Of a stretch of 64,000 nt of DNA, positions 3,393 through 15,360 are shown piece after piece (position 1 is the stretch's first letter; every line of letters begins with the position of its first letter). A model generated the notes under the pieces. It saw only the letters and a program-made list of their open reading frames with translations. It was not told the origin of the DNA and did no database searches. The position numbers were made by a program, and so were the translations under genes. The stretch covers positions 1,054,001-1,118,000 of the forward strand of contig NZ_CVUA01000001.1 of assembly GCF_001282785.1 (NCBI RefSeq). The letters are read 5' to 3'. The DNA is from Halolamina sediminis (GTDB taxonomy: Archaea > Halobacteriota > Halobacteria > Halobacteriales > Haloferacaceae).

Positions 3393-4462
3393 AGCTCGTG
3401 AACCCTCCGTTTGCGCAGCAGGAACAGGAAGAAGGGGGCGCCGACCGCGGCCGTCACGATCCCCACCGGGAGCTCCTGAGCGCCGCTCCGGGCGACCGTG
3501 TCGGCCGCCACGAGGAACGCCGACCCCGCGAGCGCGGCCGTCGGCAGGAGGATGCGGTGGTCCGGGCCGACGACGAGCCGCATCACGTGGGGGACGATCA
3601 GGCCGACGAAGCCGATCACCCCGGAGACGGCGACGCCGGCGCCGGTCATCACCGCCGACACCGCGAGGAGGAGGCGCTTGGTTCGCTCGACCTCGACCCC
3701 GAGGCCGGCGGCCTCCTCCTCGCCCAGCAGCATGACGTTCAGGTCACGCGCGTAGGCCAGCAGGAGGAGGAAACAGCAGCAGACGAACACCGGCAACACC
3801 GGCACGCCCGCCACGGGGACGAAATCCCCCCAGCCGGCGTTGTCGAGGTGGCCCATCAGCCAGTACACCACCTGCTCCATGCTCTCCCCGGAGTGCAGCA
3901 GGAGGAAGGAGGTGACTGCGCCGAGGAACGTCTGGATCGCCACCCCGGCCAAAAGGAGCGTCGCGACCGGGGTCTGCCCGTTCTCGGTCGCGATGGCGTA
4001 CACGCCGAAGGCGGTGATCAGCGCGCCGGCGAAGGCCGCCGGCTCCAGCCCCAACCCGAACGGGATCAGTGCCGGGACGACGATAGAGGCGACGGCGCCG
4101 ACCGCCGCGCCCGAGGAGACGCCGATGATCGAGGGGTCGGCCATCGGGTTTCGGAAGAACCCCTGCATCACCGTCCCGGCCGCCGAGAGCGCGAAGCCGA
4201 CCAGCGCACCCAGCAGGATTCGTGGTAGGCGGATCCGCATCACGATTGCCCGGTTGGACTCCCGCAGCGAGAACTCGAAGGGGCGCCGCCAGCCGAGCTC
4301 ACCCCCCACGAGGCTCGGCACCGCGACCGCCTCGAGCACAGCTTTGACGACCGCCTCGGCGGGGACCGCGACCGGGCCGATCCCCGCGCTGAGAACGACG
4401 GTTGCGCCGAGTGCGGCGGCTAACGCGGCCGACCAGCCGATCGCGCGCCTCGCGACGCCCAT
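3389..4462 (-). CDS. btuC: Corrinoid ABC transporter permease
   Basis: FecCD/BtuC-family permease of 357 residues with about ten membrane helices. Family signatures are seen: the [19 protein letters not shown] segment, [10 protein letters not shown], and the C-terminal [18 protein letters not shown]. The start chosen is the ATG at 4462 ([10 protein letters not shown]). A longer open frame to 4621 would run through the divergent promoter and into btuF, and encodes no membrane-like sequence. The ATP-binding gene follows with a 4-nt overlap. Confidence 0.9.
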
Positions 4463-8077: not shown

Positions 8078-8509
8078 ATGACTGCGATCCGGATGAACGA
8101 GGCGGAGATAGATACCCTTCTGAAGCAGCAAGGTGTCGGCGTGCTCTCTCTGGCGGCCGATGCGGACAGCTACGCGGTTCCCGAATCGTTCGGCTACGAC
8201 GGGGACCACCTCTACTTCCAACTCGTGTACGACGACGATAGTGAGAAGTACCAGTACCTCGATAAGACGGAGCTCGTGACGTTCACCGTGTTCTCCGAGG
8301 ACCCGGCTCGAAGCGTCGTCGTCCGCGGCAGGCTGGAACCCGTTTCGGCCGACGAGGAGCTCCTCGCGGCGGAGGCGATCGCGGAGAACGCCGACATCCC
8401 GACGCTGAACGTGATGCCGGAGACGCGGATAAGCGCGCTCACCGCCGAACACCACCGGCTCGTTCCCGAAGAGATGTCGGGCCGGGCCTTCGACGGCTCA
8501 CCTACCTGA
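8078..8509 (+). CDS. Pyridoxamine 5'-phosphate oxidase-like FMN-binding protein
   Basis: A 143-residue split-barrel flavoprotein of the PNPOx-like superfamily. The N-terminal helix with QGVGVLSLAADADSYAVPESF, the strand DHLYFQLVYD and later VVVRGRLEPVS follow the usual order of the fold. Such proteins bind FMN or F420; which one, and the substrate, cannot be told. The start is ATG 8078, with ATG 8093 as alternative. It is divergent from the PUA gene and is not in an operon. Confidence 0.8.
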   Translation: MTAIRMNEAEIDTLLKQQGVGVLSLAADADSYAVPESFGYDGDHLYFQLVYDDDSEKYQYLDKTELVTFTVFSEDPARSVVVRGRLEPVSADEELLAAEAIAENADIPTLNVMPETRISALTAEHHRLVPEEMSGRAFDGSPT

Positions 8510-8548
8510 TTCTCGGTCGCGTTCTCTCCCGGCCACCGCGGAGCACAC

Positions 8549-9046
8549 TCACAGCAGGAACTCCTCCTCCCGCTCGGCCATATCGTGGAACGCGTCGGCG
8601 GCATCGATCAACTCCTCGGCGGTCGAGCTCTCGAAGCAGAACACCTCTACCCGCACACCCTCGTGACGGAGGTGGGTACAGAGCCGCGCGAAGTCGCCGT
8701 CGCCGGAGGCCAGCACCAGCGTGTCCACCTTCTCAGCCAGCGTCACCGCGTCGAGCACGATTCCCACGTCCCAGTCGGCCTTCTGTGAGCCGTCGCCGAA
8801 CGTCTTGATCTCCTTGATCTTGCGTTCGAAGCCGATCTCCGAAAGCGCCTCGAAGAAGGACTCCTCCTCGGGCGAGTCCGCGCGGATCACGTACGCTAGC
8901 GCCCGCACGAGCTCGCGGTCCATCACTGCCTTCTCCAGCAGTCCCGAGTAGTCGATGTTCCGCGAGTAGAGGCTCTGGGCCGTGTGATAGAGGTTCTGCG
9001 CGTCGGCGAGTACCGCGACGCGTTGGCCCTCGTGAATCTCCGTCAT
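8549..9046 (-). CDS. NYN/LabA-like domain protein (DUF88), putative RNase
   Basis: The 165-residue protein has the NYN (PIN-like) fold with its acidic residues: VLADAQNLYH near the N-terminus (Asp15), DWDVGIVLDAV in the middle (Asp91, Asp93) and LASGDGDFARLC (Asp115, Asp117). These residues coordinate metal in PIN-type nucleases. RNA cleavage is a family inference. The start is supported by a T-rich TATA-like element about 28 nt upstream (9072-9079), suggesting a leaderless mRNA. Confidence 0.85.
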   Translation of the reverse strand: MTEIHEGQRVAVLADAQNLYHTAQSLYSRNIDYSGLLEKAVMDRELVRALAYVIRADSPEEESFFEALSEIGFERKIKEIKTFGDGSQKADWDVGIVLDAVTLAEKVDTLVLASGDGDFARLCTHLRHEGVRVEVFCFESSTAEELIDAADAFHDMAEREEEFLL

Positions 9047-9111
9047 TAGCCGTTCGTTGCCCGGCGTTCGTTAAAAAATGCCGTCTCCTCACCCACCCGG
9101 AGCCAGAACCG

Positions 9112-9116
9112 TTATG
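9112..9116 (+). promoter_or_regulatory. TATA-like box for the lysine operon leader
   Basis: CCGTTATGC carries a TATA-like core centred about 27 nt before the GTG at 9141. That is the spacing expected if transcription begins at that GTG. It is the only A/T-rich element between the divergent NYN gene promoter and dapA, so it is the best candidate promoter for the dap operon. Confidence 0.45.
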
Positions 9117-9140
9117 CGTGTCGGCTTCCCTCTCTCCCCT

Positions 9141-9227
9141 GTGACGCGACTGTCCGGGTTCGACGCCGCCGCTGCCCGCCGAGCCCCGGCTGTCGCACCC
9201 CGCCGCGGCAAACGCGGTAAACGCTGA
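9141..9227 (+). CDS. Possible 28-codon leader peptide of the lysine operon
   Basis: A GTG-initiated frame at the predicted transcription start encodes a 28-residue peptide ending RRGKRGKR. It has two lysines, both AAA codons, close to the stop. The frame ends 86 nt before dapA. After it come alternative hairpins (see 9249-9295). The layout resembles a transcription-attenuation leader that senses lysyl-tRNA, but two Lys codons are few and Arg and Ala are more frequent. Comparable leader control is not established in haloarchaea as far as I know. It may be a chance frame. Confidence 0.35.
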   Translation: MTRLSGFDAAAARRAPAVAPRRGKRGKR

Positions 9228-9248
9228 TTCTCCCGCTCTCGGCCGGGT

Positions 9249-9295
9249 AGCGTCCGGTCGCTGGCGGACTCCCGACCCGCATCGCGCAGCGACCG
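9249..9295 (+). promoter_or_regulatory. Mutually exclusive hairpins upstream of dapA
   Basis: CGGTCGCTG (9255-9263) pairs perfectly with CAGCGACCG (9287-9295). The first arm overlaps a smaller stem, AGCG (9249-9252) with CGCT (9259-9262). The two structures therefore compete. They lie between the possible leader peptide and the dapA ATG at 9314, where an attenuator would be expected. Function is inferred. Confidence 0.35.
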
Positions 9296-9313
9296 CTCCA
9301 CGCGACACACCAG

Positions 9314-10273
9314 ATGACGACACCGTTCAGCGGGGTCTACCCCGCCATGACCACTCCCTTCCGGGAGGACCGACGCATCGACCACGACCGACTCGCCGCC
9401 GACGCGCGGCGCCTCGAAGCCGCGGGCGTCGACGGGCTCGTCCCCGTCGGCTCCACCGGCGAGTCCGCGACGCTGACCCACGACGAGCACGCGCGGGTCG
9501 TCGAGACCGTCGTCGACGCCGTCGACGATGTCCCGGTGATCGCCGGCGCGGGCTCGAACGCGACCCACGAGGCCGTTTCCCTCGCCGAAGACGCCGAAGA
9601 AGCCGGGGCCGACGCCGTCCTGCTTATCTCGCCGTACTACAACAAGCCCGAGGCCGCGGGCTACCTCGACCACTACCGCACCATCGCCGACAGCGTCGAC
9701 CTGCCGGGGATCGTCTACAACGTCCCCTCCCGGACGGGGCGGAACGTCCCCGTCGACGTGGTGGCCGAACTCGCCGAACACCCGAACGTCCAGGGGTACA
9801 AGGCCGCCAGCGGCGACCTCGGCCGCGTCTCCGAGGTGATCGAACGGACGCGCGACGAGACGTTCTCGGTGCTCTCCGGCGACGACGGGCTCACGCTTCC
9901 GATCTGCTCGCTGGGCGGAACGGGAGCGATCAGCGTCGTCGCCAACGTCGAGCCCGAGCGCACGGGCGCGATGGTCGGCGCCGTCGCCGAGAACCAAAGG
10001 TTCTCGGCTGCCAACCAGAAATCGAAGATTTCTGGTGACGCCGCTGCCAGCGACATGGCCCGCGCCCGCGAGCTCCACTACGAGCTCGAACCCCTGATTC
10101 GCGACCTGTTCGTCGAGACCAACCCCATTCCGGTGACGGAGGCGATGGCGATCCGCGAGGACCACCCGCCGTACGTGCGCTCGCCGCTGACTCGGCTCTC
10201 CGAGGAACACCGTGAGGCGCTCCGCGAGACGCTCGCCGACCTCGCGGGCGGCGAGCCAGAGGTGACCACCTGA
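9314..10273 (+). CDS. dapA: 4-Hydroxy-tetrahydrodipicolinate synthase with in-frame palindromic insert
   Basis: First committed lysine-pathway enzyme; condenses pyruvate with aspartate semialdehyde. The 319-residue TIM barrel has the PVGSTGES pyruvate-binding loop, Tyr in IVYNVPSRTGRN, and the Schiff-base Lys163 in GYKAASGDL. Residues about 224-244 are an Asn/Lys/Ser-rich segment unlike the rest of the protein. The DNA there consists of two perfect 10-bp hairpins (9986-10008 and 10014-10036), yet the frame stays open. This segment falls before the helix MARARELHYEL and is probably a surface loop. dapB begins at the base after its stop codon. Confidence 0.93.
   Translation: MTTPFSGVYPAMTTPFREDRRIDHDRLAADARRLEAAGVDGLVPVGSTGESATLTHDEHARVVETVVDAVDDVPVIAGAGSNATHEAVSLAEDAEEAGADAVLLISPYYNKPEAAGYLDHYRTIADSVDLPGIVYNVPSRTGRNVPVDVVAELAEHPNVQGYKAASGDLGRVSEVIERTRDETFSVLSGDDGLTLPICSLGGTGAISVVANVEPERTGAMVGAVAENQRFSAANQKSKISGDAAASDMARARELHYELEPLIRDLFVETNPIPVTEAMAIREDHPPYVRSPLTRLSEEHREALRETLADLAGGEPEVTT
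9984..10036. repeat. Two adjacent perfect hairpins inside dapA
   Basis: GCCGAGAACC (9986-9995), loop AAA, GGTTCTCGGC (9999-10008); then ACCAGAAATC (10014-10023), loop GAA, GATTTCTGGT (10027-10036). On the minus strand the first unit occupies a 30-nt block (9984-10013) that begins TGGCAGCCG and ends CGGCGA, the same ends and length as the dapF unit. The A/T content is much higher than the surrounding gene, consistent with acquired sequence. Confidence 0.85.
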
Positions 10274-11055
10274 TGTCGGCCGACCCGACCCGGATCGTCA
10301 TCACGGGCGCGACGGGCCGGATGGGCGAGGAACTCATCGCCGGCGCCGGCGACCGAAACGACGTGTTGGTCGTCGCCGCCGTCTCGCGAACGCCGGGCTC
10401 CGTGACCGCCGAAGCAGCGGTCGGCACCCACCTCGACGCGACGCTCGCCGACGAGGACGACATCGACGCCGTCGTCGACTTCACCGCGCCGGAAGCGACC
10501 GCGGAGTACGCCGAGATCGCCGCCGACCACGGCGTCGCGTTCGTGACGGGGACGACCGGACTGGAGGACCACGACGCCGACCCGCTGGGCGCGCTCGACG
10601 CCGCCAGCGAGTCGATTCCAGTGCTCCACGCCAGCAACTTCTCCCGCGGGATCGCCGCGCTCCGCGGTGCAGTCCGGGAGGCCGCAAGCGCGCTGCCGGG
10701 CTACGACGTGGAGATCAGCGAGACCCACCACAACGGCAAGCGCGATGCCCCCAGCGGCACCGCGCTCACGCTCGTCGAGGACGTGGAAGCCGAGCGTCCC
10801 GATCTGACCGACCGCCAGCACGGCCGAGAGGGCGAGCAGCCCCGCGAAACCGACGAGATCGGCGTCCACGCCCGCCGGGCCGGCGACGTGACCGGCGAGC
10901 ACGAGGTGCTGTTCGCGGGCAACTGCGAGACCGTCTCGCTGTCGCACTCGGCGGGCGACCGCGGCGTGTTCGCCGAGGGGGCGCTCGACGCCGCCGTCGC
11001 CCTCGCGGACTGCGACCCCGGCCGTTACGAGCTCGCCGAACTACTACAGGATTGA
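10273..11055 (+). CDS. dapB: 4-Hydroxy-tetrahydrodipicolinate reductase
   Basis: NAD(P)H-dependent reductase of the diaminopimelate route, 260 residues. Seen are the N-terminal dinucleotide-binding GATGRMGEE, the catalytic segment ETHHNGKRDAPSGTAL containing the His-His and Lys residues, and ASNFSRGIAAL with family spacing. The ATG at 10273 overlaps the dapA stop (ATCTGATG arrangement), so translation is coupled. It follows dapA and precedes dapD. Confidence 0.95.
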   Translation: MSADPTRIVITGATGRMGEELIAGAGDRNDVLVVAAVSRTPGSVTAEAAVGTHLDATLADEDDIDAVVDFTAPEATAEYAEIAADHGVAFVTGTTGLEDHDADPLGALDAASESIPVLHASNFSRGIAALRGAVREAASALPGYDVEISETHHNGKRDAPSGTALTLVEDVEAERPDLTDRQHGREGEQPRETDEIGVHARRAGDVTGEHEVLFAGNCETVSLSHSAGDRGVFAEGALDAAVALADCDPGRYELAELLQD

Positions 11056-11085: not shown

Positions 11086-11919
11086 ATGAGCCTCGAAACC
11101 GAGATTTCGGACCTGTGGAACCGCTACGAAGACGGACTCACCGCCGCGGCGGCGGGCAGCAGCGAACTGGAGACGCTCGACGCGTTCCTCGCCGCGCTGG
11201 AGGCTGGCGAGTGCCGCGCCGCCGAGCAGGTCGGCCCCGCAGAGTGGGTGGCCGTCCCGTGGGTCAAGCGGGGCGTCCTGCTCAACTTCGGCCTGCGCGA
11301 GACCCAACCCCGCAGCTACGGGGGCGTCGACTACTACGACGTGCTCCCGCTGCGTTCGACCGACGACCTCGCGGAGCGCGGCACGCGGAACACGCCCGAC
11401 GGCACCGTCCTCCGTCCCGGCTCCTACCTCGGCGAGGACGTGATCATGATGTCGCCCAGCTTCGTCAACATCGGTGCCCGCGTCGGCGACGACAGCCTCG
11501 TCGACTCGAACGACGTGGTGGGTTCCTGCGCCCAGATCGGCGATGGCGTCAAGATCGGCGCCAACACGCTGATCGGCGGGGTGCTCGAACCCGTCGAGGA
11601 CGCCCCGGTCGTCGTCGAGGACGGCGTCTCGCTGGGCGCGGGCTGCCGCGTGACCTCGGGGTTCGTCGTCGGCGAGAACAGCGTCGTCGCCGAGAACACG
11701 CTGCTCACCCCGCGGATCCCCGTCTACGACCTCGTGGACGAAGAGGTCCACTACGGCCGGCTCCCGCCGGAGCGCCGCGCGTTCCAGCGGTACGTCGAGT
11801 CCGCCGTCTCCGAGGAGGAGCTGATCCCCGGGAAGGCGTACAAGCCCGCGGTCGTCGCGACGGGGCTGGAGCAGGAGACGCTCGAAGCGACCCAGCGCGA
11901 AGGCGCGCTCCGCGAATGA
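11086..11919 (+). CDS. dapD: Tetrahydrodipicolinate N-succinyltransferase
   Basis: Transfers succinyl from succinyl-CoA to tetrahydrodipicolinate. The 277-residue protein has an N-terminal helical part and a left-handed beta-helix built of hexapeptide repeats (VRPG-like turns, GARVGDDSLV, GDGVKIGANTLIGG, VEDGVSLGAGCRVT). Its size matches bacterial DapD. It implies the succinylase branch rather than the dehydrogenase or aminotransferase (DapL) branch. A 30-nt gap separates it from dapB; lysA overlaps its stop. Confidence 0.93.
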   Translation: MSLETEISDLWNRYEDGLTAAAAGSSELETLDAFLAALEAGECRAAEQVGPAEWVAVPWVKRGVLLNFGLRETQPRSYGGVDYYDVLPLRSTDDLAERGTRNTPDGTVLRPGSYLGEDVIMMSPSFVNIGARVGDDSLVDSNDVVGSCAQIGDGVKIGANTLIGGVLEPVEDAPVVVEDGVSLGAGCRVTSGFVVGENSVVAENTLLTPRIPVYDLVDEEVHYGRLPPERRAFQRYVESAVSEEELIPGKAYKPAVVATGLEQETLEATQREGALRE

Positions 11920-13193
11920 TGGTCGATCCCTCCGCAGTCCGGCGACTCACTGACTGGAACCGCGACACGCTGGACGCGCTCGCCGCGGCGCACGGCACGC
12001 CGCTGTACGTGTTCGACCCCGCGCGGGTCCGCGAGAACTGCCGGCGGCTCCGGGCGGCGTTCCCCGACGCCGAGATCCAGTACGCCGCGAAGGCCCACAC
12101 GGCCGAGGAAACGCTCCGGACCGTCCACGACGAGGGGCTGGCGGTGGAGTGCGCCTCCGCCGGCGAGGTCCGCCGCGCTCTCCGGGCCGGAGTCCCGGGC
12201 AGCGACGTGACCTACACCGCGGTCAATCCCCCTGCCCGCGACCTCGACAGCGTCGTCGAAGCGTGGGGGGAGCATCCCGAACTCACGATCACCGCCGGCG
12301 CCGCGGACACGGTCGACCGCCTCGCCGAACGCGGGTTCGACGGCCGTCTGCGGCTGCGAGTGAACCCCGGCGTCGGCGCCGGCCACCACGAGAAGGTGGT
12401 CACGGGCGGCCACCCCAAGTTCGGCGTCGGGCTCGACCGCGTGCCCGGCCTCGCCGCGCGGATCGACCGCGAGTTCGCGTTCGCGGGCATCCACGCCCAC
12501 GCCGGCTCGGGGATCTCGGGCGACGATCTCGACGACCACCGCGAGCTGGTCCGGCGGCTGGGCGATCTGGCTCGGGAGCTCCAACGGGACGGGATCTCGG
12601 TCGAGACGGTCGACGTGGGCGGCGGCTTCGGCGTCCCGTACCGCGAGGACGCCCCGGCGCTCGACCTCGACACTGTCGCGGACGCGACCCGCGAGGCGCT
12701 GGGTGAGATCGACGGCCGGCTCGCAATCGAGCCCGGGCGCTACGTCGTCGCCGACGCTGGCGTGCTGCTGACGCGGGTGAACACTGTGAAGGCGGCGCCG
12801 TCGACCGTGGTCGCGGGCGTCGACGCCGGGATGACGACGCTGCTGCGGCCGGCGATGTACGACGCCTACCACGCGATTCGGAACCTCAGTTCCGAGGACG
12901 ATCCCTCGCCGCGCGAGCAGGTCGGCGTCACCGTCGCCGGCCCGGTCTGTGAGACCGCGGACCTGCTCTGTGAGAACCGCCCGCTCTCCCGCCCCGAGTG
13001 CGGCGATCTGCTCGCGGTCGGCAACGCGGGCGCGTACGGCTACGAGATGGCGTCGACGTACAACTCCCGACCCCGACCCGCGGAGGTGACCGTCGACGGC
13101 GCGGTCCTGCGGCGGCGCGAGACGCTCGCGGACGTGCGCCGGCTCGACGCGGCGGGGGACTCAAACCGTCGGAACGACGAGGGGGACGTATGA
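11916..13193 (+). CDS. lysA: Diaminopimelate decarboxylase
   Basis: PLP enzyme that makes lysine from meso-diaminopimelate. The 425-residue product has the barrel start IQYAAKAH (PLP lysine), HAHAGSGISG, VDVGGGFGVPY, EPGRYVVADAG, and the C-terminal catalytic Cys in GPVCETADLLCENR. The start overlaps the dapD stop as ATGATG; ATG 11916 is used, with ATG 11919 equally possible. The dapF start overlaps its stop (ATGA). Confidence 0.94.
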   Translation: MMVDPSAVRRLTDWNRDTLDALAAAHGTPLYVFDPARVRENCRRLRAAFPDAEIQYAAKAHTAEETLRTVHDEGLAVECASAGEVRRALRAGVPGSDVTYTAVNPPARDLDSVVEAWGEHPELTITAGAADTVDRLAERGFDGRLRLRVNPGVGAGHHEKVVTGGHPKFGVGLDRVPGLAARIDREFAFAGIHAHAGSGISGDDLDDHRELVRRLGDLARELQRDGISVETVDVGGGFGVPYREDAPALDLDTVADATREALGEIDGRLAIEPGRYVVADAGVLLTRVNTVKAAPSTVVAGVDAGMTTLLRPAMYDAYHAIRNLSSEDDPSPREQVGVTVAGPVCETADLLCENRPLSRPECGDLLAVGNAGAYGYEMASTYNSRPRPAEVTVDGAVLRRRETLADVRRLDAAGDSNRRNDEGDV

Positions 13194-14182
13194 CGGTCGC
13201 GTTCGAGAAGTACGACGGCGCGGGCAACGACTTCGTGGTCGTCGACGTAGACGAGTGGAACTCGTCTGGCAGCCGGAACGCGCAGCGTTCCGGCGAGGCG
13301 GACGGGCACCCCGTCGAGGACCGCGCCGCATTCGTCCGCGTCCACTGCGACCGCGAGGTCGGCGTCGAGAACGAAGCCAGCGCCCGCCACGGCGCCGACG
13401 GCGTGCTGTTCCTCTCGTTGGACGCGGCCGCCGCCCCGGCGAGGGTGACGATGACGCTGGTCCAGCCCGACGGCTCCATCGCGGAGATGTGCGGCAACGG
13501 CGCACGCTGCGTGGCGGCGTGGGCCGCCGACCGCACGGATGCGTCGACGTTCGACATCGACACGCCCGCCGGCACTCGCCGCGCGGTCGTCGATGACGAG
13601 GTGGCCGTGGAGATGGGCGTGCCGACGTTCGACCCCGAAGACGTCCCACTCGCAGCCGACGAACCGCTCGTCGACGCGGCGCTCGACGAACTCGACGGCA
13701 CGCCCGCCGCGGGGCTAGCCGTCACAGCCGTGAACACCGGCGTCCCCCACGCAGTCGTCTTCGTCGGCGACGTGGACGCGGTCGAGATCGACGCCGTCGC
13801 GTCACCGATCCGTCACGCCGACGCGTTCCCGGACGGCGCGAACGTCACGTTCGCGTCGGCGGCGGACGAGGGGTTCCGACAGCGCACCTACGAGCGCGGC
13901 GTCGAGGGGGAGACGCGAGCCTGCGGCACCGGCGCGGTCGCGGTCGCCGCGGCGGCGAAGCGGCTCGGCCGGATTCAGGGGGGCGCCGGCTGGATCACGG
14001 TTTCCCCGCCGGGCGGCGATCTCGCCGTTGCGGTGCCCGAGGACGGCCCCGCACGGCTGCGTGGCCCCGCGAGAAAGCGCTTCGAGGGGGAGCTCCCTAT
14101 CCCCGAGGGCGACCGCGTCGCGGGCGTAAGCGGCGAGGCGGCGCTTGGCGCGGACCGTATCGACGACGGGCACGAGCGATGA
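13190..14182 (+). CDS. dapF: Diaminopimelate epimerase with in-frame palindromic insert
   Basis: Interconverts LL- and meso-diaminopimelate without a cofactor through two cysteines. Both are visible: Cys in EMCGNGARC and Cys in TRACGTGAVAV. The 330-residue protein is longer than usual 270-290-residue DapF. Residues about 20-38 (after VVVDVD) are a Ser/Gly/Arg-rich insert encoded by two hairpins (13249-13267 and 13272-13294). It lies in a loop after the second N-terminal strand, so activity is probably kept. The start overlaps the lysA stop and its own stop overlaps dapE. Confidence 0.93.
   Translation: MTVAFEKYDGAGNDFVVVDVDEWNSSGSRNAQRSGEADGHPVEDRAAFVRVHCDREVGVENEASARHGADGVLFLSLDAAAAPARVTMTLVQPDGSIAEMCGNGARCVAAWAADRTDASTFDIDTPAGTRRAVVDDEVAVEMGVPTFDPEDVPLAADEPLVDAALDELDGTPAAGLAVTAVNTGVPHAVVFVGDVDAVEIDAVASPIRHADAFPDGANVTFASAADEGFRQRTYERGVEGETRACGTGAVAVAAAAKRLGRIQGGAGWITVSPPGGDLAVAVPEDGPARLRGPARKRFEGELPIPEGDRVAGVSGEAALGADRIDDGHER
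13249..13296. repeat. Two adjacent hairpins inside dapF, ends matching the dapA unit
   Basis: AGACGAG (13249-13255) pairs with CTCGTCT (13261-13267). GCCGGAACG (13272-13280) pairs with CGTTCCGGC (13286-13294). The second lies in a 30-nt block (13267-13296) starting TGGCAGCCG and ending CGGCGA, identical at both ends to the block in dapA. The stems and loops differ between the two. Confidence 0.85.
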
Positions 14183-15360
14183 GTTTCGAGCCCGTCGCCT
14201 TCCTCGAAGACGCTGTCCGGGACGATTCTACCGAGGACGTGCGCGGCACCCGGGATTTACTGCTCGACGCGCTCCGGGAGCGTGGTCACGAGCCGCATGT
14301 CGACGCTGCCGGGAACGTCCGCGCCAGCCGCGGTTCCGGCTCGCCCCACCTCGTGTTCAACACCCACATCGACACCGTGGCGCCGCACGTTCCCTTCGAG
14401 CGGGACGGGAGAACGATCCGCGGCCGCGGCGCCTGCGACGCGAAGGGGCCGCTGGCCGCGCTGCTGTCGGCGTTTCTCGACGCCGAGATCGACCGGGGGA
14501 CGCTCACGCTCGCGGTCACGCCCGACGAGGAGACGCTTTCCACCGGCGCCCACGCGCTGATGACTGGCGAGGTGGCGCCGGGCGGCCCGGGCGAGACGGG
14601 GGCGAGCGTGGCCCCGCTCTCCGCGTCCGATCCCGAACCCGACGCCTACGTCGTCGGCGAGCCGACCGGCCTCGACGTCTGTACCGCTGCCCGCGGGCGG
14701 TTCGAGGGAACGATCACCGTCGAGGGGGTCGCCGCCCACGCCGCCAGCCCCGAGTCGGGCGTCAACGCCGTCTCGGCCGCGGGGAGACTGCTGGGGGCGC
14801 TGGCGTCGTTCGACAACGTCGAGGACCACCCGCAGTTGGGCGCCGCGACGCTGGTGCCGACGGGGGTCGCGGGCGGGGAGTCGACGAACCAGGTGCCCGC
14901 CCGCTGTGCGGTGACGATCGACCGCCGGAGCGTGCCGCCCGAGACGGCCGCGGGGTTCCGGGCGGCGCTCGAAACGCATCTCCGGTCGGCCCTCGGCGGC
15001 GACCCCGCTTCGGTCTCGGTCTCGCTGACCGAGCGGGAGACGCCGTTTCTCGAAGCGTTCGCGACCGACACCGACGCGCCGGTGGTCGGCGCGCTCGCGG
15101 ACGTGGCGAGGAGCGCGACCGAGGCGTCGGGGCTGGGCGAGCGCGGGGCGGTCAGGCCGTTCGGCGCGGCGACGGAGGCGTCGTACTTCGCGCCGGCGCC
15201 GACGGTCGTGTTCGGTCCGGGCCACCTCGCGGACGACGAGGGCGCGGTCGCCCACGCCGAAGGAGAGTACGTCGACGTCGAGACGGTTCGGGCGGCGGCG
15301 ACGGCGGTTCGTGATGCGACCGAGCGGCTGCTGGCCGACGACGCCCAGTTGCGGGGCTGA
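14179..15360 (+). CDS. dapE: Succinyl-diaminopimelate desuccinylase (M20 family)
   Basis: Zinc hydrolase that removes the succinyl group before epimerisation. The 393 residues hold M20 metal ligands: NTHIDTV (His), CDAKGPLAALL (Asp), PDEETLSTG (Glu pair), then the dimerisation lid with GVAAHAASPESGVNAV and late His in VVFGPGHLAD. The last gene of the lysine operon, its ATG overlaps the dapF stop by 4 nt. Promiscuous M20 deacylases look alike, but the operon decides the assignment. The aminotransferase step (DapC/ArgD) is not in this window. Confidence 0.9.
   Translation: MSFEPVAFLEDAVRDDSTEDVRGTRDLLLDALRERGHEPHVDAAGNVRASRGSGSPHLVFNTHIDTVAPHVPFERDGRTIRGRGACDAKGPLAALLSAFLDAEIDRGTLTLAVTPDEETLSTGAHALMTGEVAPGGPGETGASVAPLSASDPEPDAYVVGEPTGLDVCTAARGRFEGTITVEGVAAHAASPESGVNAVSAAGRLLGALASFDNVEDHPQLGAATLVPTGVAGGESTNQVPARCAVTIDRRSVPPETAAGFRAALETHLRSALGGDPASVSVSLTERETPFLEAFATDTDAPVVGALADVARSATEASGLGERGAVRPFGAATEASYFAPAPTVVFGPGHLADDEGAVAHAEGEYVDVETVRAAATAVRDATERLLADDAQLRG

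Follow-up and report, generated by a model that had tools for sequence, protein, structure and literature searches.

Ribosome-mediated attenuators of bacteria, such as those of the trp, his, ilv and thr operons, have a leader open reading frame (ORF) that ends in codons for the product of the operon, with a hairpin closely downstream. Such control of amino-acid operons, by a ribosome that pauses within the leader, belongs to the textbook repertoire of bacteria and needs translation to follow close behind transcription. In the part of the open-access literature that was surveyed, no case of it was found reported for an archaeon. Lysine genes of bacteria are also controlled by the lysine riboswitch. 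The leuA-Halobacteria RNA (RF03001) is a cis element of Halobacteria that lies before a leuA-family paralog. In the available part of a study of Haloferax volcanii, 16 short ORFs of 15–31 amino acids are described in long 5'-UTRs, and its table 2 places ORFs of 26 amino acids before HVO_2948 (pheS) and 23 amino acids before HVO_A0127 (tryptophan-tRNA ligase) (Babski 2016, PMC4983044). These two ORFs could be further amino-acid leaders. According to the authors, all the tabled ORFs have a low isoelectric point; dapA is not among the genes tabled, and no amino-acid sensing is proposed for the ORFs in that part of the paper (PMC4983044).

The window analysed here is a stretch of 64,000 nucleotides of Halolamina sediminis (contig NZ_CVUA01000001.1, positions 1,054,001 to 1,118,000), in which a leader precedes the lysine operon. 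The dapA leader resembles the bacterial attenuators in its ORF, in end-product codons a few codons before the stop and in a hairpin nearby. It differs from them in being archaeal and apparently leaderless, in its single dominant hairpin, which has two parts and a conserved loop, and in lacking both a U-run terminator and a class-wide antiterminator pairing. Like RF03001, it is a cis element of Halobacteria upstream of an amino-acid biosynthesis gene, but the gene and the sequence are different. No Rfam family, the lysine riboswitch included, matched positions 8500–10500 of the window or seven related dapA loci at the gathering score, and at about 35 nt the dapA hairpin is also much smaller than that riboswitch.

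Leader ORF and promoter upstream of dapA

The lysine operon of the window comprises dapA (9314–10273, TIGR00674 equivalog), dapB (10273–11055, TIGR00036), dapD (11086–11919, NF008808), lysA (11916–13193, TIGR01048), dapF (13190–14182, TIGR00652) and dapE (14179–15360, NF006402), all on the forward strand downstream of the leader, the starts of lysA and dapF being assigned in this analysis. The leader ORF occupies 9141–9227 on the same strand, with a GTG start, 28 codons and a TGA at 9225–9227, and translates as VTRLSGFDAAAARRAPAVAPRRGKRGKR. Its two lysine codons, both AAA, lie at 9210–9212 and 9219–9221, 5 and 2 codons ahead of the stop. The promoter at 9104–9116 has a BRE-like C at -37, AA at -34/-33 and a TATA-like TTATG (9112–9116) spanning -29 to -25, all relative to the leader start. 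The sequence-only reading had proposed a leader-peptide attenuator here, and its frame, both AAA codons, the TATA-like box and both of its inverted repeats were all found where it had placed them. Within dapA, some 50 nt at 9985–10038 that keep the reading frame carry the palindromes GAACC..GGTTC and CCAGAAATC-GAA-GATTTCTGG. A matching two-palindrome stretch is present in dapA of Halolamina salifodinae (L004, at about 3672–3724), and L005, L014, L015, L029 and L031 gave no such pattern. The stretch resembles a palindromic element that has entered a coding gene.

A DapA relative was present in 117/119 and 116/116 genomes searched, and 109 upstream regions that form part of these, 11 from named records and the others from family and class searches, were compared. 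With lysine demanded close to the ORF end, an initial screen found a leader in 106/109 of them. Under a strict rule, with 18–42 codons, an AT-rich box at -36 to -20 and K..[KR] within the final 9 residues, a leader is present in 89/109 dapA upstream regions, in 0/150 control regions upstream of trpC, hisG, ilvB, thrC and trpD, in 39/2180 Markov-resampled dapA upstream regions and in 0/109 antisense strands of the dapA upstream regions. The leader frame is far above chance.

Since lysine forms part of these rules, a hairpin-anchored test was designed to avoid circularity: the hairpin was placed by a covariance model (CM), and the ORF with its stop at the hairpin was picked by promoter box and length, with no use of lysine content. 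When the copies L027, L028, L030 and L072 are excluded, 105 non-duplicate dapA loci are left; the hairpin is present at 104 of them, and an ORF with a median of 26 codons ends at it in 101/104. At 40 further loci outside the model building, one of which (L379) duplicates L009, the hairpin was found in 39/40 and the ORF in 37/40. The frame is therefore conserved in relatives at 138/144 loci (101/104 and 37/40), a point on which the sequence-only reading had staked its proposal. By the CM, L121 and L381 are the loci without the hairpin among the 105 and 40. Three loci (L069, L354 and L376) have the hairpin and no ORF that satisfies the rule; by eye, L376 has KRKRKR before a stop, without a usable start. 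A diverged hairpin-like block (GTCTTGGGCA...GTCCTTGGC) with no clean leader ORF is seen in L354, L376 and L381, where dapA control may have changed. In the related genomes of L081 and L083, the leader lacks the usual stop and continues into the hairpin (KRKRACECSRRA), a naturally occurring variant suited to probing the model.

Alignment of 102 unique leader starts shows C at -37 in 90%, A at -34 in 92%, A at -33 in 91%, T at -28 in 85% and A at -27 in 82%, with a pyrimidine at -1 in 96%, and an AT-rich box (5 of 6) accompanies 85/101 hairpin-anchored leaders. Such a BRE/TATA spacing in archaea fits a transcript that begins at the start codon. Since TATA and BRE elements at about -27 and -34 of the start codon leave no room for a ribosome-binding site, a leaderless transcript is implied, and so the promoter indicates that the leader ORF, with its counterparts throughout the class, is probably leaderless. 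The AT profile from -40 to -1 of the dapA starts is flat (n=104), with no class-wide TATA element for a promoter of dapA itself.

All 101 hairpin-anchored ORFs have lysine in the final seven codons, one residue in 12, two in 83 and three in 6 of them, and the same holds for 37/37 ORFs of the further loci. Lysine accounts for 196/707 tail residues (28%) versus 7/1940 body residues (0.4%) in the hairpin-anchored set, and for 74/259 versus 2/749 in the further loci. The first lysine is mostly 4–5 codons and the last mostly 3–4 codons ahead of the stop. The tail lysine codons are AAA in 168 cases (86%) and AAG in 28, and in the further loci AAA in 66 and AAG in 8, whereas the dapA genes themselves use AAG 134 times and AAA 8 times, and the counts for eight genes of the window, among them dapA, are 21 AAG and one AAA. 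Since 109/151 arginine codons of the leader tails end in C or G, the AAA preference is no effect of local composition or AT-richness. AAR triplets number 179 in the leader frame versus 37 and 42 in the other frames, in a set selected by lysine. The N-terminal two thirds of the leader vary freely between families, and the body is near neutral: among 24-codon leaders, 495/1468 single-difference codons are synonymous, 34% versus an expected 30%, as would be expected where only decoding of the tail matters. The AAA choice and the near-neutral body, both read from sequence comparison, thus point to lysine decoding rather than to the peptide.

The conserved hairpin

The hairpin is built of an outer helix P1 (GCUCG/CGGGC) around an inner helix P2 (GCGGG/CCCGU), with a loop that contains GURGC, and a short pyrimidine stretch and then GAC follow P1. 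In the window it spans 9233–9267 on the forward strand, with P1 at 9233–9237/9263–9267, P2 at 9240–9247/9253–9260 and the loop UAGCG, and starts 6 nt past the leader stop; in most loci the modelled hairpin begins no more than about 2 nt past the end of the stop codon. Over 50 distinct sequences, 91.7% of the cells of its 12 pairs are paired and both sides have changed in 9/12 pairs. The covariation score is equalled by 0/500 shuffles, and slid versions of the hairpin pair at 39–53%. The window hairpin scores 35.3 bits with the CM, its own copy being among the 50 training rows. When the leader RNA is folded over its whole length, P2 comes out as the preferred pairing in just 66/102 predictions.

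A CM search of 78 genomes of the class, many of which contributed to the model themselves or through relatives, gave 73 strong matches (E <= 1.4e-4), one each in 73 genomes and all on the dapA strand, 45–238 nt upstream of dapA. There was no strong match at any other gene in these 78 genomes, the next CM matches having E values of 4.7e-4 or weaker. Elsewhere in the phylum, outside the class, 0/124 other genomes matched in a search of low sensitivity, under strict filters that also missed the genome of the window itself, so that absence there is weakly supported.

What holds class-wide of the sequence-only reading is a short ORF with terminal lysine codons that precedes the lysine operon and that its promoter spacing marks as leaderless; the competing hairpins that it had proposed as the switch differ from the class-wide element. 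One of these, the pair AGCG/CGCT at 9249–9252/9259–9262, has the P2 loop as its 5' half. The other is a 9-bp inverted repeat, CGGTCGCTG/CAGCGACCG, at 9255–9263/9287–9295 on the forward strand, which could compete with P1 and P2 and is found in Halolamina only. The hairpin under selection is P1/P2, which that reading had not listed. A class-wide alternative partner for the hairpin was not detected, with mean z-scores of 0.26 and -0.06 over 102 leaders, and of the four leaders with the lowest values, three (L004, L026 and L029) are from Halolamina. A conserved switch between the two proposed pairings was rejected on these grounds.

A bacterial-type terminator was rejected as well, since a run of four or more T within 20 nt past the hairpin occurs in 5/101 loci only. 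With neither a class-wide competing hairpin nor a U-run, the output step of the bacterial attenuators is not seen here. For Haloferax volcanii, 503 termination sites are reported to have a hairpin at most 10 nt upstream (PMC7237163), and so hairpin-linked termination is conceivable there.

A second leader upstream of ilvB

Upstream of ilvB, 28/30 genomes carry a short ORF whose stop codon is spanned by a hairpin, GUAGGGG/CCCC, and in many genomes this leader sits between a leuA-like gene and ilvB. In the source genome, the ilvB leader lies at 1254–1319 of L224 (about 1498568–1498633 of G000:C1), with the ORF MTRRRHTGSLGVSVSLIIVGV and the hairpin across the stop. The hairpin motif occurs in 0/120 upstream regions of trpC, hisG, thrC and trpD, and no Rfam match was obtained in two ilvB loci tested. 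Since the hairpin arm itself encodes Val-Gly through its conserved nucleotides, only residues before the arm were counted. In the 7 residues before the arm, Ile, Leu and Val make up 51% (Ile 24%) versus 12% earlier in the ORF (Ile 0), making ilvB a second operon with leader residues that match its products. At trpC, hisG, thrC and trpD, with 30 loci each, neither promoter score nor residue content nor the dapA criteria revealed a leader, and so no general rule for amino-acid genes holds.

A candidate leader at a second leuA-like gene was discarded because the block conserved at that gene proved to be RF03001, which is already known (L260 2689–2741, L266 1364–1416, L269 1373–1425, L277 1376–1428 and L283 1370–1422). 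A short ORF, preceded at promoter distance by an AT-rich box, overlaps RF03001 at this gene.

Proposed mechanism and alternative explanations

Comparison of loci shows the ORF with its lysine bias, its promoter, and a hairpin that follows the ORF closely; leader translation, sensing of tRNA-Lys charge and the direction of control are inferred from them. On this basis, the dapA leader is likely to be an archaeal leader-peptide attenuator of the lysine operon that senses charged tRNA-Lys and is near-universal in the Halobacteria sampled. Transcription would begin at the start codon of the leader, and ribosomes would load on the leaderless GTG or ATG ORF and decode usually two AAA codons, which are rare in these genomes and mostly 3–5 codons before the stop. 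A shortage of charged tRNA-Lys would stall the ribosome at these lysine codons. The ribosome footprint reaches about 12 nt beyond the start of the A site. With this footprint assumed, the edge of the stalled ribosome would lie near the stop codon, allowing the whole of P1 and P2 to form. When lysine is plentiful, ribosomes at the stop codon would cover the 5' arm of P1, and P2 alone would remain. P1 would then be a switch that reports the position of the ribosome, with lysine shortage turning the dap operon up. Candidate outputs of the hairpin are transcript elongation, for example through a site of factor-dependent termination that is shielded or exposed, translation of dapA, and mRNA stability. 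It is also fairly probable that leaderless leader peptides sense both lysine at dapA and branched-chain amino acids at ilvB, each with its own new hairpin, through a two-state reading of ribosome position and without a U-run.

A different use of the same ORF would be an arrest peptide. Its basic end (K-K-R), while still in the exit tunnel, would slow the ribosome, with lysine or a different ligand serving as cofactor, and the hairpin would respond to this arrest rather than to tRNA charging. The raised arginine content of the tail, 21% versus 14%, and its loosely conserved K/R order (KKRA, KRKR and KPKR) are consistent with such an arrest. However, sequence-specific arrest would constrain more residues than the near-neutral body allows, and lysine is present in every leader while arginine also occurs in the body; the prevalence of the rare AAA codon points to decoding, leaving arrest an unlikely explanation. 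The basic peptide might alternatively work in trans as a functional microprotein, for which the conserved C-terminal K/R motif could be taken as evidence, but the near-neutral, freely varying N-terminal two thirds and an ORF end held close to a hairpin in cis at 101/104 loci make this very improbable.

If the hairpin were a cis-regulator that binds a protein or a ligand, the ORF being incidental or an insulating upstream ORF, the conserved GURGC loop, the covariation and the lack of a visible partner strand would be accounted for. Such an RNA-only element would leave unexplained the lysine in 138/138 ORFs, the frame bias, the fixed distance between TATA and start, and the pathway-matched Ile/Leu/Val leader at ilvB, and there is little probability in its favor. 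A chance ORF is conceivable from the window by itself, short frames being common in GC-rich DNA, but it is excluded by the strict-rule counts in dapA upstream regions against those in control, resampled and antisense sequences, and its probability is negligible.

If attenuation by lysine decoding is confirmed, archaea would sense amino acids in a manner similar to bacteria, through leaderless ORFs, and the coupling of transcription to translation in haloarchaea would gain a readout that is open to genetics. The catalogue of RNA elements would then gain two members.
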